Source: Pseudomonadota bacterium
GTDB taxonomy: Bacteria > Pseudomonadota > Gammaproteobacteria > Magnimaribacterales > D2472
Assembly: GCA_028404565.1 (NCBI GenBank)
Contig: JAOOBR010000004.1
Location: forward strand, 1-64,000
Direction: 5' to 3'
DNA: 64,000 nt
The notes under the pieces were generated by a model. That model was not told where the DNA came from and ran no database searches. It saw only the letters and a list, made by a program, of their open reading frames with translations. This document shows, piece after piece, positions 19,488 through 27,901 of the stretch (position 1 is the first letter of the stretch; each line of letters opens with the position of its first letter). A program made the translations under genes and the position numbers.

Positions 19488-20753
19488 TTAAATTATTTCC
19501 TCTACTTCATTCAAAGCAGAAGCCACTTTCTCTCCATTCCTGAAGATAATTTCAACCTTTTTATGATCCGTAAAATTTTTACCAAAAACGATCGATACAG
19601 GAACGCCAATTAACTCAGAATCTTTTATCTTTTTCCCAAAACCATCATCTCGATCATCCAATACTACCTCGAACCCTTTCTGAGTGAGCTCTTTATAAAG
19701 TTTTCTGGATGATGCTTCAATATTTTTGTCTTTATCAGCCCCGATTGTAATTATATTTAAATCAAAAGGAGAAATAGATTTTGGCCAAATAATTCCCTTA
19801 TCATCAAAATTTTGTTCAATTGCAGCCGCGACTATCCTTGAGATACCTATTCCATAACATCCCATGTGCATGTTTTTAGCTTTACCTGAGTCATCTAAAA
19901 CAGTCGCATTCATATTTTCGCTATACAGCTTGCCCAATTGGAATATATGTCCCACTTCAATACCTTTTGTAATTTCCAGCAATCCATTCCCATCAGGTGA
20001 TTCTTGTCCAACTAGTGATTTTGAATCTTGACCATTTTCAAGCAAAAGCTCAGCATTAACCGCATAATCAGATTTATCAGATACTGCAAGAGTATCTTCA
20101 CCATTTTCTGCAAGTACATGAAATTCCTCAGATTTATCTCCACCAATTGCGCCTGAGTCTGCTTTTACTATTTTAAAATCTAGCCCTATTCTCTCAAAAA
20201 TTTTTGAGTAGGCATTTCTCATTATTTGGTATGTTTCTTCCAAGCTTTCTTCAGAAAGATGAAAGCTGTAAGAATCTTTCATTAAGAATTCTCTACTCCT
20301 CATCACTCCATATCTTGGTCTTATTTCATCTCTAAATTTAGTTTGTATTTGATATATATTCAAAGGAAGCTCTTTATAACTTTTGACATTATTTTTAATT
20401 AAATCAGTTATTACTTCTTCATGAGTAGGACCTAGGCAAAAATCTCTATCGTGACGATCTTTAAATCTAAGCAATTCTGGACCAAATTTATCCCATCTCT
20501 TTGATTCATTCCATAAGTCCTTTGGTTGCACCATCGGCATTAGCACTTCATGCGCTCCCGCATTGTTCATCTCTTCTCTAACAATATTTTCAACCTTATT
20601 TAAGACCCTTAAACCAAGCGGAAGCCAAGTATAAATCCCAGAGGCATTTTTTCTTATCATGCCAGACTTAAGCATGAGGCTATTACTTATAACTTGAGCA
20701 TCTTCAGAAGCAGTATCTTTTAGCGTAGGAATGAAATAATTTGACCAAAACAT
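19488..20753 (-). CDS. proS: Prolyl-tRNA synthetase, short form lacking INS editing domain
   Basis: [83 protein letters not shown]; 421 aa total. Confidence 0.97.
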
Positions 20754-20818: not shown

Positions 20819-21100
20819 ATGCCCATTTATGAATACAAATGCTCAAATTGTGGGCACCAATTTGAAAAAATACAGAAATTTTCGGATGATCCACTAAAAA
20901 AATGTCCAAATTGTGATAAAAATGCTTTAAATAAGTTAATATCCAGCCCATCATTTAGGCTTAAGGGCAGTGGATGGTATGAAACTGACTTTAAAACAGG
21001 TAATAAAAAGAACATACTAAATAAGGAAAAAGATACTAAAGACTCCACAAAGTCTAAAAAAAAGAATAAGGATAGCGGAAAGGTAAGCAATGAGAACTGA
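20819..21100 (+). CDS. FmdB-family zinc ribbon protein
   Basis: [32 protein letters not shown]. Confidence 0.92.
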
Positions 21101-22853
21101 ATACTGTGGGAATGTAACTAAAGAACATTTAGGAAAAGATGTTTCAATATGTGGTTGGGTCCATCGAAGGCGAGACCATGGTGGCGTTATTTTTCTTGAT
21201 ATAAGAGATCTTGAGGGTATTTGTCAGGCAGTTATCGATCCATCAAACGAAGAGGCATTTTCCCTTGCAGATAAATGTAGAAGCGAGTTTGTTATTAATA
21301 TAAAAGGAAGTGTCCGAGAGCGACCTGAGGGAACTGTTAACTCTAAAATGAAGACTGGGGAGATTGAAATAGAAGTAAGCGAATTAGAGGTTTTAAACTC
21401 TGCTGCAACACCAGCATTCCCTCTAGATGATTACCAAGATGTTAATGAGGATGTTCGATTAAAAAATAGAATCCTAGATTTAAGAAGACCTGAAATGAAT
21501 AATAGGATTCTTAAAAGATCTAAAATCGTATCTACCATAAGAAATTTTTTAGAAGGCAGAAGTTTCAATGAAATAGAAACTCCAATACTCACAAGAGCAA
21601 CTCCTGAAGGAGCAAGGGACTATATTTTGCCAAGCCGTGTTCACCCCGGAAGCTTTTACGCTCTTCCTCAGTCCCCTCAACTTTTCAAGCAAATGCTCAT
21701 GATGGGAGGAATGGACAGATACTATCAAGTTGCAAGATGTTTTAGAGATGAAGATCTAAGAGCAGACAGACAGCCTGAATTTACTCAGATTGATATAGAA
21801 GCATCTTTTGTTGAGGAGAAAGATATCATTGAGCTTGGCTCAAGCTTACTAAAGCTTTTGCTTAAAGATTTTGCAAATCACAACATAGATAATATTGATG
21901 AACTTGACTATGCGGATGCTATTAATAAATACGGCTCAGACAAACCTGATCTAAGAATACCTCTTGAGTTGATAGAGATTTCTGATGAAGCTAAAAAGGA
22001 GGAATTTAAAGTTTTCTCTGATCCTGCAAAAAATGATGGATCAAGAGTTGTTGCTTTAAAAGTAGATGGAGGAAATAAACTTACAAGATCTCAAATAGAT
22101 GAATATACAAATTTTGTAGGTAAATTGGGAGCAAAAGGGCTTGCTTATATAAAAATTAATGATGCTTCTGACATCGAAAATGGACTCCAATCTCCAATTC
22201 TTAAGTTCCTTTCTAAAGACTTCATTACTGATCTTTTTAACAAGCTGAATCCTGTAGATGATGACTTAATTTTCTTCGGTGCAGGACCTTCTGAGGTAGT
22301 TAATTTAAGTATGAGCTCTTTAATAAAGAAACTTGGAAAAGATTTAGATTTATATCAAAACGATTGGGCGCCATGTTGGATAACTAATTTCCCAATGTTT
22401 GAAAGCGATGCAGGTAATTTGAAGGCGCTCCATCATCCATTTACAAGACCTAAAGAGGATCTAGAAAAATTTAGAAAGGATCCATCTGGTGCTCAAGCTT
22501 ATGCTTATGATCTAGTTCTCAACGGATATGAAATCGGCGGAGGTTCTTTGAGGGTTCATGACTCTAAAATGCAATCGGCTATCTTTGATGCTCTAAATAT
22601 TTCAAGTGAGGAGGCAAGTCTTAAGTTTGGATTCTTGCTTGATGCTCTTAAAACTGGATGTCCGCCTCATGGCGGTATAGCTCTAGGTCTTGATAGAATT
22701 GTCATGCTGCTAACTGAAACTGAAAATATAAGAGATGTAATTGCATTCCCTAAGACTCAAAGCGCATCATGTCTTCTTACAGACGCTCCAAATATTGTTG
22801 ATGAGTCTCAACTTAACGAACTGCATATTAAAAAAGATCTTGATGAGGAATAA
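21090..22853 (+). CDS. aspS: Aspartyl-tRNA synthetase
   Basis: [82 protein letters not shown]. Confidence 0.98.
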
Positions 22854-22856
22854 ATA

Positions 22857-23600
22857 ATGGCTGGTCATTCCAAATGGGCAAATATAAAACATAGAAAAGC
22901 CAGACAAGATGCTAAAAGAGGAAAGATATATACTAAATTGATCCGTGAGCTTACCGTTGCAGCAAAAGCAGGTGGCGGTGATCCTAATGATAACCCTAGA
23001 TTGCGATTGGCTCTTGATAAAGCTAATTCTGAAAATATGCCTAAAGATACAATAAATAGGGCTATAGAGCGGGGAACTGGTGCAGGAGAAGCTGGGAACC
23101 TTGAGGAAATTACATATGAAGGATATGGTCCAGGAGGGGTTGCTGTTTTAGTTGAGGCAATGACTGATAATCGAAATAGAACTGTTGCAGATGTTAGACA
23201 TGCATTCACAAAATTTGGAGGTAATCTTGGTACAGATGGTTCCGTTAGTTACTTATTTAACAAAATTGGCCTTGCGATGATTGAAAAAAATCAAGATGAA
23301 GATGCAGTAATGGAAATTTTATTGGATTTTGATGGTGAAGACCTAGAAGATACTGGAGATAATTTTGTAGCGACAGTGCCATCTCAAAATCTTTCTGCAT
23401 TTGTAGAGAAGCTAAAGGAACAAGGGATAGAAGTTGAAAATGCAGAGGTCACAATGAAAGCTGATACAAGCGTACCTGTTGATCAAGAAATGGGAGAAAA
23501 AGTTCTAAGGATTCTTGATTTTTTAGATGAAGTAGATGATGTTCAAGAAGTACATTCAAATGCAGAATTTCCTGACGACTTTAAACCTTCGGAGCATTAA
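22857..23600 (+). CDS. yebC: YebC/PmpR family protein
   Basis: MAGHSKWANIKHRKARQDAKRGKIYTKLIREL; YEGYGPGGVAVLVEAMTDNRNRTVADVRHAFTKFGGNLGT. Confidence 0.98.
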   Translation: MAGHSKWANIKHRKARQDAKRGKIYTKLIRELTVAAKAGGGDPNDNPRLRLALDKANSENMPKDTINRAIERGTGAGEAGNLEEITYEGYGPGGVAVLVEAMTDNRNRTVADVRHAFTKFGGNLGTDGSVSYLFNKIGLAMIEKNQDEDAVMEILLDFDGEDLEDTGDNFVATVPSQNLSAFVEKLKEQGIEVENAEVTMKADTSVPVDQEMGEKVLRILDFLDEVDDVQEVHSNAEFPDDFKPSEH

Positions 23601-24025
23601 TGCCAGTTAATTCTAGAGCAAAGGGAGCTAATTTTGAGAGAGAAATTGGAAACCTTCTTGTAAAAGATTTAGGCTTAAAGAATCCTGTCAAAAGGATTCT
23701 TGAACAGACTAGAACGAAAGAATTGCCCGATCTCATGTTAGGAAGATGGTGTATTGAATGTAAACGTTATGGTGATGGCTCTGAGCCAAGTGCTGATTGG
23801 TGGAATCAAGTGCTTATCGCATCAAGAAATGACAATCAAATACCAGCTTTGGTTTATAAATTTAATAGGAAACCGCTAAAAGTTAGAATTCTGGCATCAA
23901 GTATAAATACTAAGATTGAAAATCAAGATATAACCGTTGATCTATCATGGGAAGATTTCATTTCAATTATTAAAGAATTATTTTTAGAAGATATTGACTT
24001 ACATGAAAAAAGTTCACAGGTGTAG
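23600..24025 (+). CDS. Putative PD-(D/E)XK nuclease, Holliday-junction-resolvase-like
   Basis: SRAKGANFEREIGNLLVKDLG (motif I Glu); ELPDLMLGRWCIECKRY (PD-X9-EXK); 141 aa; sits between yebC and ybgC where ruvCAB is usually found. Confidence 0.65.
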   Translation: MPVNSRAKGANFEREIGNLLVKDLGLKNPVKRILEQTRTKELPDLMLGRWCIECKRYGDGSEPSADWWNQVLIASRNDNQIPALVYKFNRKPLKVRILASSINTKIENQDITVDLSWEDFISIIKELFLEDIDLHEKSSQV

Positions 24026-24419
24026 AGATTTCAACATTTTTGTTTTTGTTGAGGATACTGATTTTCAGGGAATTGTTTACCACGCAAATTACTTGAAATA
24101 TTTCGAAAGAGCGCGATCAAGCTGCCTTAAAGATCTTGATATTTCTCAGAGTGAGGAAATTGTTGCAGGAAAAGTTTTTATCATAAAGACTATAAATATT
24201 GAGTTCGTAAAACCAGCTAAGATTGAGGATAATTTGGTTGTTTCCTCAGAAATTGAATACTCATCTAATGCTCGACTATTCTTTCATCAACAAATCAAAA
24301 GGAAAGAAAGTGATGATATTATATGTAGTGGAAAAGTTGAGGTATGTTTTTACGATCAAAATAAAGATAAACCAGTTGCTTTCCCAAAAAAATTATTAAA
24401 AGTCTTTAAAAATGAATGA
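24003..24419 (+). CDS. ybgC: YbgC-like acyl-CoA thioesterase
   Basis: VEDTDFQGIVYHANYLKYFERARSSCL; start of the tol-pal cluster. Confidence 0.94.
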   Translation: MKKVHRCRDFNIFVFVEDTDFQGIVYHANYLKYFERARSSCLKDLDISQSEEIVAGKVFIIKTINIEFVKPAKIEDNLVVSSEIEYSSNARLFFHQQIKRKESDDIICSGKVEVCFYDQNKDKPVAFPKKLLKVFKNE

Positions 24420-25095
24420 AGTATCAGCTATAGAGTTATTTTTACAAGCAGGAATAGTTGTTAAGTCAGTAATGATTGTTTTGATTTTTGCTTCGATTAT
24501 TTCATGGATAATTATCTTTGAAAGATACATTTTCTTTAGGAAAGCTAATGAAAATAGATTTATTTTTGAGGATAAATTCTGGTCAGGAACTGATCTAAAT
24601 GATCTTTATACTGAACTTGATGAATTAGATGTTGATTTAATTGGCTCAACAAGTGTTTTTAAAAATTCTTTCAAGGAATTTAAAAGGATATCAAACAGGA
24701 GCGGACTAACAGATATGGACTTAGAAGGTCTCAATAGATCTATGAGAGTTTCTATAGCAAGAGATGAAGAGGATATGAATAAAAATTTATCGATACTTGC
24801 AAATATAGGTTCAGTGAGTCCTTATATTGGCCTATTTGGAACAGTTTGGGGAATTATGGGTTCTTTCCAAGGCCTTTCAGATGCAACACAGGCTACTATT
24901 AATGCTGTTGCACCAGGGATATCTGAGGCTTTAATTGCAACAGCTATGGGTCTTTTTGCAGCTATACCAGCTGTAATAGCTTTTAATAGATTTACTTCAA
25001 AAGCAGATTCTTATTTACAGACAACAACAATTTTTGCTGAAGAGCTTGCAAGCATCTTCTATAGAGAATCAGTAAAGCAAAAAGATGATCTATAG
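24412..25095 (+). CDS. tolQ: Tol-Pal system protein TolQ
   Basis: LSILANIGSVSPYIGLFGTVWGIMGSFQGL; PGISEALIATAMGLFAAIPAVIAFNRF. Confidence 0.96.
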   Translation: MNEVSAIELFLQAGIVVKSVMIVLIFASIISWIIIFERYIFFRKANENRFIFEDKFWSGTDLNDLYTELDELDVDLIGSTSVFKNSFKEFKRISNRSGLTDMDLEGLNRSMRVSIARDEEDMNKNLSILANIGSVSPYIGLFGTVWGIMGSFQGLSDATQATINAVAPGISEALIATAMGLFAAIPAVIAFNRFTSKADSYLQTTTIFAEELASIFYRESVKQKDDL

Positions 25096-25507
25096 AATAG
25101 GTCGAAGAAAGAAACTACATGCAGAAATTAATGTAGTCCCCTACATTGATGTAATGCTCGTATTACTAATAATCTTTATGGTTTTATCACCACTATTAAT
25201 ACAAGGTATTGATGTTAATCTGCCTAGAACAGATACAACAAAAATGTCAATTCAGAATGAGCCTTTGGTAGTATCAATCGATAAAAATGGTAATTATTTT
25301 CTTAATCTGGGGGAAGAAGAAATTGCAATTTCGCTTGATGAGCTTAAAGACAAGGCATTTGTTATTTTTGATGCTAATCCAGAAATTGAAGTTGTTTTTA
25401 AAGGAGATGAGGCAGCTGATTTTCAAAGTGTGGCAGCTGCAATGGCGGCAGTTCAAAGTGTTGGCATTGCAAAAATAGGAATTGTAACTTCGGGATATGA
25501 TGACTAG
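25085..25507 (+). CDS. tolR: Tol-Pal system protein TolR
   Basis: INVVPYIDVMLVLLIIFMVLSPLLIQGIDVNLP. Confidence 0.95.
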   Translation: MIYRIGRRKKLHAEINVVPYIDVMLVLLIIFMVLSPLLIQGIDVNLPRTDTTKMSIQNEPLVVSIDKNGNYFLNLGEEEIAISLDELKDKAFVIFDANPEIEVVFKGDEAADFQSVAAAMAAVQSVGIAKIGIVTSGYDD

Positions 25508-26120
25508 CACTAATATACTTATTGCATCCTTTTATTCTTTCTTAATTCATGCAGGCCTGTTTTTAGGATTTTTTGGATATTTTGAACAAACTTCAAAGCC
25601 AAACAAAATACTTAGCTCGCCTCTTAGTGTAAAAATGCTTGTCGAGGAAGTAACTCCAAACACTCAAAAAAAGAACTATGTAAAGATGCAGCCAGATATT
25701 TACAAGGAACCTATTATTGAATCAGCAGAAATAATTCAGGAAGTTATGAAAACAAAATCTTATGCGATATTTGACTCTGGAATAGATTCCTTATTGAGTG
25801 AAGAAAAAGATTCTGATAATGCTTATGATGACGATATTGTAAGATTTTATAATGCAATAAAGCTTAAGATTGAATCAGCATGGATTAAGCCAAGAAATAT
25901 TCCATCTAACCTTTCATGTGATCTAAAAATTACAATTAATCCACAAGGCAGAGTAGTTGGCTTAAATCTTTTAAAAAGTAGTGGGAATATAAGATTTGAT
26001 AACTCTGCTATGCAGGCGGTAAGAAGGGTTGAAACTTTTTTTATCTTTAAAGAGATGGAAAGACAAGTTTATGAGGAAACTTTTAAAAACATTATCTTTA
26101 GATTTAATCCAACAAAATGA
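25497..26120 (+). CDS. tolA: TolA-like protein with short linker domain
   Basis: Between tolR and tolB; N-terminal TM; TonB/TolA-like C-terminus (IKLKIESAWIKPRNIPSNLSCDLKITINPQGRVVGLNLLKSSGNIRFDNSAMQAVRRV). Confidence 0.85.
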   Translation: MMTSTNILIASFYSFLIHAGLFLGFFGYFEQTSKPNKILSSPLSVKMLVEEVTPNTQKKNYVKMQPDIYKEPIIESAEIIQEVMKTKSYAIFDSGIDSLLSEEKDSDNAYDDDIVRFYNAIKLKIESAWIKPRNIPSNLSCDLKITINPQGRVVGLNLLKSSGNIRFDNSAMQAVRRVETFFIFKEMERQVYEETFKNIIFRFNPTK

Positions 26121-27406
26121 AATTTTTAAAATACTTTTTGATATTCCCACTTTTCTTGAATGCTGAGCTAGTAATTGAGATTACAAAAGGTTCTGATAAT
26201 CCATACCGAATAGCATTAATTCCATTCCAAGGAGAATCTGGTGCAGCAAAACAAGCTAACGAGATTGTGAAGAATGATCTTATTAGAACAGGAGAATTTT
26301 ATATTTTTGATGAGAAGTCTTTGATTGCATATCCACCCAGTGAAGAAGAAATTAATTACAGTGACTGGAGACTTATAAACGCTGATTTTCTTCTTCTTAC
26401 ATCAGTTATTGATAGCAATTCAGGTATTGAAGCCAGATATGAAATATTTGATGTTAGGAAAAAATCTAAAATTAGAAGCTCAAAGGTTTATGGAGTTACT
26501 AATAATGTAAGACAGCTATCGCATTATGTAAGTGATGGGATTTATGAAGCAATTACAGGAATCCAAGGCGTCGCATCAACAAAGATACTTTATGTAAGTC
26601 AGTCAAATGATGTTGATACCTCATACAGGCTTTATGTCGCAGATGCAGACGGAGTTAATGAGCAACTTTTAGTGAAAAGTCCTGAGCCAATAATATCTCC
26701 AGCCTGGTCACCTGATTCCAAGAAGGTCGCTTATGTTTCTTTTGAAACTGGCATTGCAAATGTATACATTCAGGATATTTCAACTGGAGAGAGACAATCA
26801 ATTATTGAGAAAAGGTGTTTGACATGCATCTCTAATGAACAAATTAGTTCTCCCTCTTGGTCGCCAGATGGGAAGTATCTGTCATTAACTTTATATCAAG
26901 ATGGAAATGCTGAGATTTATATTTATAACCTCCAAAAAAGAAATCTAACAAGGTTAACAAATCATTATTCCATTGATACAGAATCTCAATGGTCGCCTGA
27001 TGGGAGGAAACTGATGTTCACTTCAGGAAGGTCTGGCTCACCACAATTGTATGAGCTAGATTTACGAAAGCTAAACAAAAAGCCAAAACGCTTAACATTT
27101 GAAGGAAATTACAACGCAAAAGGTTCTTATCTTCCAGGTGGAGAGGGCATTGTTTTTGTTCACAGGTCCTCTGATAAATTCCAAATAGCGATAAAATATT
27201 TTGAAGACAATTTTGTGATTCCTCTTACTGATGCAAAAATGGATGAATCTCCTAGTGTTTCTCCAAATGGTAATGTGATAATCTATGCTATAAGCGAACA
27301 AAATAATGACATTTTGGCAGGAGTAACTTTAAGTGGAGCCAAGTTCCGTTTACCCTCTGCAAAAGGTCAGGTAAGAGAACCAGCTTGGTCAGGTTTCTTA
27401 AAATAA
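26117..27406 (+). CDS. tolB: Tol-Pal system protein TolB
   Basis: N-terminal signal; WD40-like repeats (PAWSPDSKKVAYVSF, PSWSPDGKYLSLTL, SQWSPDGRKLMFTSGRSGSPQLY). Confidence 0.96.
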   Translation: MKFLKYFLIFPLFLNAELVIEITKGSDNPYRIALIPFQGESGAAKQANEIVKNDLIRTGEFYIFDEKSLIAYPPSEEEINYSDWRLINADFLLLTSVIDSNSGIEARYEIFDVRKKSKIRSSKVYGVTNNVRQLSHYVSDGIYEAITGIQGVASTKILYVSQSNDVDTSYRLYVADADGVNEQLLVKSPEPIISPAWSPDSKKVAYVSFETGIANVYIQDISTGERQSIIEKRCLTCISNEQISSPSWSPDGKYLSLTLYQDGNAEIYIYNLQKRNLTRLTNHYSIDTESQWSPDGRKLMFTSGRSGSPQLYELDLRKLNKKPKRLTFEGNYNAKGSYLPGGEGIVFVHRSSDKFQIAIKYFEDNFVIPLTDAKMDESPSVSPNGNVIIYAISEQNNDILAGVTLSGAKFRLPSAKGQVREPAWSGFLK

Positions 27407-27901
27407 ATGGGAGATAAAATGCAATTAATTAAATCTTTTTTCACAATTTCTCTAGTGACAATATTTATTGTTTCATGCAGCTCTGTTCAGGTAACTGAGG
27501 AGTCTGTAAGAGAATCAAGTATTGCAACTGTAGAGGTATCAACATCTGATACCTATGAAACAAAATCAACGGCTGTATCAACTTCTGCAACAATTTATTT
27601 TGATTTTGACAAATACAATCTTACATCTAGATCTATTCAAACGTTAAGAGGTGTAATTTCAGCGATGAAAGATAACTCTTCCATAACTCTTGTTCTTGAG
27701 GGACACGCAGATGAAAGAGGGACTAGAGAATATAATTTAGCTCTAGGACAACGAAGAGCTGAGTCTGTTGCTGATTATCTTGAATCAAGAGGAATAAATA
27801 GATCAAGACTGGTAATCAAAAGTTATGGAGAGGAAAGTCCAGCTGTTTCTGCGTCTAATGAGAGAGCTTGGGCAAGGAATAGAAGAGTAGAAATAAAATA
27901 A
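27407..27901 (+). CDS. pal: Peptidoglycan-associated lipoprotein Pal
   Basis: Lipobox IVSCSS; OmpA domain IYFDFDKYNL...LVLEGHADERGTREYNLALGQRRAESVADYL; start possibly 27419. Confidence 0.96.
   Translation: MGDKMQLIKSFFTISLVTIFIVSCSSVQVTEESVRESSIATVEVSTSDTYETKSTAVSTSATIYFDFDKYNLTSRSIQTLRGVISAMKDNSSITLVLEGHADERGTREYNLALGQRRAESVADYLESRGINRSRLVIKSYGEESPAVSASNERAWARNRRVEIK

Follow-up and report, generated by a model that had tools for sequence, protein, structure and literature searches.

In SAR86, a highly abundant group of marine bacteria to which the genome analysed here belongs, a small PD-(D/E)XK nuclease of the type found in phage recombination modules is probably a housekeeping, Hjc-like Holliday-junction resolvase that displaced the whole ruvC-ruvA-ruvB block in situ before the group diversified. 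What we observe directly is the presence of the gene, its conservation, the selection acting on it and its position, together with the absence of RuvABC, an Hjc-like predicted fold with matching residues, relatives in phage modules and a repeat of the exchange in a second lineage. The displacement of a resolvase by a non-orthologous one is already known as a kind of event. We found no literature linking SAR86 with ruvC or Holliday junctions, subscription papers lying outside our search; among the papers covered, SAR86 and PDDEXK are mentioned together in just one, which to judge by its title and abstract deals with another subject.

The gene lies in an operon of the window, the 64,000-nucleotide stretch of DNA that we analysed, with the following features:

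21090–22853, plus strand: aspS, conserved upstream neighbour
22857–23600, plus strand: yebC, left border of the slot and usual left neighbour of ruvC (E. coli layout for comparison)
23600–24025, plus strand: PD-(D/E)XK nuclease (PDDEXK_15), 141 amino acids, proposed Hjc-like Holliday-junction resolvase
23621–23659, plus strand: N-terminal helix motif KGANFEREIGNLL, with invariant Glu13 (codon 23636–23638), which aligns with Hjc Glu9
23726–23767, plus strand: PD-X8-ECKR catalytic motif, with Asp44 (23729–23731), Glu53 (23756–23758) and Lys55 (23762–23764)
24003–24419, plus strand: ybgC thioesterase, right border of the slot
24412–27901, plus strand: tolQ-tolR-tolA-tolB-pal, conserved downstream neighbours

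Reading of the frames together with annotation bears out the gene order first proposed from the letters alone, fmdB-aspS-yebC-ORF-ybgC-tolQ-tolR-tolA-tolB-pal-cpoB. The start of the nuclease and the stop of yebC have one base in common (TAATG) and the 3′ end of the nuclease overlaps the ATG of ybgC at 24003, so that the gene is tightly embedded in the operon. E. coli has the order aspS-nudB-yebC-ruvC-ruvA-ruvB, in which a single gene separates ruvC from ruvA. No gene comes between aspS and yebC in the window; family f38, described below, and its sister families have nudB there (L273, L048). Elsewhere in the window, a prolyl-tRNA synthetase is only 421 amino acids long (19488–20753, minus strand), and we take it to be a short form without the editing insertion.

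The 141-residue frame is present as the sequence-only reading had described it, and it is not a chance frame, since it matches Pfam PF24608 (PDDEXK_15) above the curated cut-off (E-value 1.4e-9, 38.5 bits against 27 bits, residues 4–111), recurs in 137 of the 151 genomes of the order and shows a low dN against dS (0.009–0.063 versus 0.20–1.97 in the three closest pairs), as expected under purifying selection. The differences among close SAR86 copies fall mostly at third codon positions. Both motifs that the reading had pointed out, the N-terminal KGANFEREIGNLL and the second motif LPDLMLGRWCIECKR, are there, but the spacing it gave for the latter, PD-X9-EXK, was wrong, the actual arrangement being D-X8-E-x-K. 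Glu13, Asp44, Glu53 and Lys55 are invariant across an alignment of 32 relatives, and a WW-x-Q that follows the active site is invariant as well. Judged by its sequence, the protein belongs to PDDEXK_15, described in Pfam as a 'phage putative PDDEXK endonuclease', and PHROGs assigns it to phrog_244, labelled Holliday-junction resolvase; we know of no member of PDDEXK_15 that has been tested experimentally.

The frame has no match to the Pfam model of RuvC or to the Pfam and NCBIfam models of RecU, and is thus neither RuvC nor RecU; the restriction family models of Pfam and NCBIfam gave no match either. With RusA it would share the character of a small phage-borne resolvase, and the phrog_244 label borrows the RusA name, but the frame has no RusA Pfam match, no RusA appears among the listed PDB fold matches, and E. 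coli RusA has no credible match in a SAR86 chromosome (G006, described below). The protein is therefore not RusA, and we dropped the 'RusA-like' phage label, a computational one, as a family assignment.

An AlphaFold (AF2) model of the nuclease, built from 32 natural sequences, reached a pLDDT of 88.5 and a pTM of 0.85. When it was compared with the PDB using Foldseek, ranks 1–17 were all Hjc-type archaeal resolvases (probability 0.82–1.00), with modest E-values (1e-3 to 5e-2) and TM-scores of 0.37–0.67 (target TM up to 0.67), which mark the similarity as remote. A profile alignment with Hjc by hhalign spanned 82 columns (probability 87) and placed Glu13, Asp44, Glu53 and Lys55 on the Hjc catalytic set, the last three aligning with Asp33, Glu46 and Lys48 of Pyrococcus furiosus Hjc. 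The Hjc Pfam model does not match the frame, and neither single-sequence nor profile searches found a sequence match among solved nucleases in the PDB; the sequence-family test having failed, the nuclease does not belong to the Hjc sequence family of archaea. On the strength of its predicted fold and active site it would instead work like Hjc, with junction cleavage inferred. Archaeal Hjc and Hje (1gef, 2wcw, 2wiw, 1ob8, 2eo0) resemble it in size, predicted fold, the N-terminal KGxxxERE helix, the D-(n)-ExK active site and a conserved lysine in a later strand, whereas the nuclease comes from a bacterial and phage sequence family, is 15–24% identical to them in fold alignments, has no activity data and carries an extra C-terminal helical segment as well as the WW-x-Q after the active site.

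A match to a restriction-type fold would have refuted the resolvase proposal, and the PD-(D/E)XK fold is indeed common to restriction enzymes. The first of these, 3ndh, appears only at rank 18 (probability 0.54), after the 17 Hjc-type structures, so that Hjc stands ahead of any restriction enzyme in the comparison. No methyltransferase or defence genes lie beside the nuclease in the operon of the window and, unlike defence genes, it occupies one locus in all 22 genera; it is accordingly very improbable that the nuclease is a restriction-type enzyme or serves defence in another way.

Conservation of the locus, which the sequence-only reading had left to be checked, holds across the order. The nuclease model matches 38 of 40 high-quality genomes, all six single-contig genomes and members of every one of the 22 genera, and in nearly every locus read the gene lies between yebC and ybgC or tolQ, at the slot before the tol genes. 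Contigs with close copies are almost all titled SAR86 cluster and include the complete chromosome CP097973.1, which was counted for its nuclease copy only and is not covered by the figures on RuvABC absence. Fourteen of the 151 genomes gave no copy even with a sensitive SAR86 profile; these are multi-contig draft bins, 51–91% complete. One genome, G026, has a second, displaced and divergent PDDEXK_15 copy outside the yebC–ybgC slot (36% identity; L009 1492–1911, G026:C4:52025–52354), perhaps of recent phage origin.

RuvABC itself is missing. The RuvC Pfam profile, positive in E. coli and seven other controls, matched none of the 151 genomes of the order, that of the window included, and RuvB_C likewise matched none (0/151). 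RuvB_N gave matches of about 30 bits in all genomes, over the AAA+ core only; we rejected these as RuvB, the match examined in the window's own genome being ClpX and RuvB_C giving none. The single good RuvA match, in G118 (L052 1093–1692), lies next to an RND pump on a small contig, in a bin of 120 contigs that is 73% complete and has no RuvB or RuvC, and it was set aside because this context suggests that it is probably a contaminant. The loss of RuvABC claimed at the outset thus stands, with RuvA effectively absent, and an intact ruvABC elsewhere, which would have overturned the proposal, was looked for in the 151 genomes of the order without being found. In the class as a whole, RuvC is kept in 332 of 352 genomes. 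Class genomes at least 90% complete with neither RuvC nor PDDEXK_15 are G153, G154, G171, G193, G200, G212, G230, G262, G435, G465 and G476.

The bin of the window (1.08 Mb) is only 79% complete and many of its relatives are drafts, which raises the question of whether the absence merely reflects incomplete bins. The zero counts for RuvC and RuvB_C, however, extend to 40 high-quality genomes and to six on a single contig, the assemblies cover the slot and show the nuclease in it, and RuvABC is also lacking from G006, a SAR86 genome of 1.23 Mb on one contig that starts at dnaA and, as read from its last bases, ends near rpmH. An artefact of this kind is hardly credible any longer, and within the reach of these genomes it counts as refuted.

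Beyond the order, PDDEXK_15 is rare in the class, being carried by a few genomes only, and among them is a second case of the same exchange. Family f38 belongs to another order and has genomes of 1.1 Mb; the nuclease occurs in nine of its 12 genomes as against none of eight in the sister families of that order, whereas RuvC was found in none of the eight f38 genomes tested and in all seven sister-family genomes tested. Nuclease and RuvC are thus mutually exclusive in this order. In two f38 genomes a shorter PDDEXK_15 protein of 104 residues lies exactly between yebC and ybgC, where the sister families have aspS-nudB-yebC-ruvC-ruvA-ruvB-ybgC-tolQ-tolR-tolA-tolB, which means that in f38 the ruvC-ruvA-ruvB block has been replaced by one small gene. 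Forcing the SAR86 and f38 proteins into one clade gave a tree that was 59.6 log units worse and was rejected (p-AU 0.0002). Short alignment rows and some long branches call for caution here, and the SAR86 proteins form one side of a weakly supported branch (68/66). The f38 case strengthens the interpretation of the SAR86 nuclease as a displacement.

RuvC and PDDEXK_15 occur together in five genomes of the class (G157, G236, G274, G287 and G341), and in none of the loci read there does PDDEXK_15 occupy the yebC–ybgC slot. G274, a gammaproteobacterial genome of 1.1 Mb, has RuvC plus a distant, 111-residue PDDEXK_15 elsewhere (L050 1483–1818), a pairing that might represent an earlier stage of the swap or an unrelated use.

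G006 has clear matches to E. coli RecA, RecF, RecO, RecR, RecX and YqgF, and the retention of RecA and RecFOR implies that recombination has not been abandoned. It has no clear match to E. coli RuvA, RuvB, RuvC, RecG, RusA, RecQ, RadA, RecN, RecC or RecD; its best matches to RecG, RecB and RadA were rejected, as the sequences read as Mfd, UvrD and DnaB. The search for recG and yqgF, also suggested beforehand, yielded a divided picture for the former: RecG_wedge is found in 112 of the 151 genomes of the order and in none of the seven of the window's genus. Near relatives lack RecG too (the genera concerned are g1–g4), with RecG fragments interrupted by in-frame stops in two g4 genomes (G070 and G101) that look, from their sequence, like decay, and this second branch-migration helicase seems to be undergoing stepwise loss within SAR86. 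With both RuvAB and RecG missing, no known junction-migration motor was found in the window's genus.

Because YqgF is present, the nuclease is not the sole conceivable resolvase. RuvABC could simply have been lost, with YqgF (RuvX) or nothing taking over and the nuclease a hitchhiker with an unrelated role; YqgF in the single-contig SAR86 genome and the class genomes lacking both RuvC and PDDEXK_15 are compatible with this. Yet YqgF is found alongside RuvC or RecU in the majority of genomes and is therefore no simple substitute (PMC1193525), and without functional replacement it is hard to account for two different Hjc-like proteins at one slot in two lineages, which leaves a hitchhiker improbable. 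A published case in a symbiont concerns recA and ruvABC disappearing together and is not one of replacement (PMC7042692).

Relatives of the nuclease are abundant in viruses, with 318 viral contigs carrying the SAR86 type and 83 the f38 type, and named phages carry both types as well. The SAR86 protein is 39% identical to marine phage proteins, and the neighbourhood on viral contigs includes a Sak-like annealing protein, an SSB and an exonuclease-like protein. At an equivalent slot preceding a PD-(D/E)XK exonuclease, an ssDNA-binding protein and a primase/helicase, sibling Roseobacter phages carry different types, SAR86 in CRP-821 and f38 in CRP-823, so that the two subfamilies look interchangeable, as two resolvases would. 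Compared with predicted viral proteins, the SAR86 model had a best TM-score of 0.78, and several weaker matches are named Holliday-junction resolvase. Modelled separately, the f38-type phage protein L203 likewise had its first 12 ranks filled by Hjc-type enzymes, at low TM-scores, and its profile aligned with Hjc with a probability of 97 (E 3e-11). The SAR86 protein is a direct member of PDDEXK_15 (PF24608) and phrog_244 alongside these phage nucleases, but its gene is chromosomal, operonic and order-wide in the ruvCAB slot, whereas theirs lie in a recombination module. Transfer from phage to cell is inferred, not proven.

There is also room for a broader role, in which the protein is a structure-selective repair nuclease that acts on replication forks, flaps and loops and for which, as with many phage resolvases, junctions are one kind of substrate among several. 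Phage proteins are its closest relatives, promiscuity is typically greater in viral than in bacterial resolvases (PMC3864405), and no branch-migration partner is left in the window's genus. Against this, it is Hjc, a Holliday-junction enzyme, that the fold search picks out, and both its place in the slot and its mutual exclusion with RuvC indicate that junctions are what the nuclease was selected to act on. Such breadth, which overlaps with a resolvase displacing RuvABC and differs in specificity only, is possible but doubtful.

For a displacing resolvase, the mechanism can be sketched as follows. By analogy with Hjc, the protein would form a homodimer in which Glu13, Asp44, Glu53 and Lys55 of each subunit surround metal ions, and would nick opposing strands of the four-way junctions that RecFOR–RecA strand exchange leaves behind, giving ligatable duplexes without the ATP-driven RuvAB motor. 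In the window's genus, where RecG is also missing, junctions would probably be cut where they stand or after spontaneous migration. Dimerisation, metal use, cleavage and direct functional takeover are all inferred. In situ displacement, as first proposed, is supported short of biochemistry by the absence of RuvABC, the Hjc-like predicted fold, the conserved locus and its repeat in f38. The lack of a sequence match to solved nucleases, the modest Foldseek values, the presence of YqgF, the 14 drafts without a copy and the lack of a RuvAB or RecG partner in the genus count against it. RecU in Firmicutes and Mollicutes is likewise a non-orthologous nuclease in place of RuvC, but surveys show it acting beside a retained RuvAB, mostly from another location (PMC1193525, PMC3403352), whereas SAR86 has lost RuvA and RuvB and has the new gene in the vacated slot.

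SAR86 emerges as a free-living marine order without RuvABC, part of it also without RecG, in contrast to a survey of 117 species in which only two genomes with RecA lacked RuvAB, and both of these had kept RecG (PMC1193525). We lean, with some reserve, towards a wider conclusion: at least two streamlined gammaproteobacterial lineages independently lost RuvABC and gained a phage Hjc-like nuclease at the same position, free-living RecA-positive bacteria of the window's genus, which also lack RecG, resolve junctions by a motorless one-protein system, and phage parts can take the place of late-stage recombination machinery, which has been regarded as close to universal and seldom transferred. A conserved SAR86 gene that had no name until now thereby receives a likely function, and its family offers compact candidate junction-cutting enzymes, their activity being inferred. 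If the nuclease is a resolvase, SAR86 would have a minimal bacterial recombination pathway of RecFOR–RecA and one small nuclease. This would provide a natural experiment on the need for active branch migration, and it would mean that core chromosome machinery has given way to phage parts more than once.
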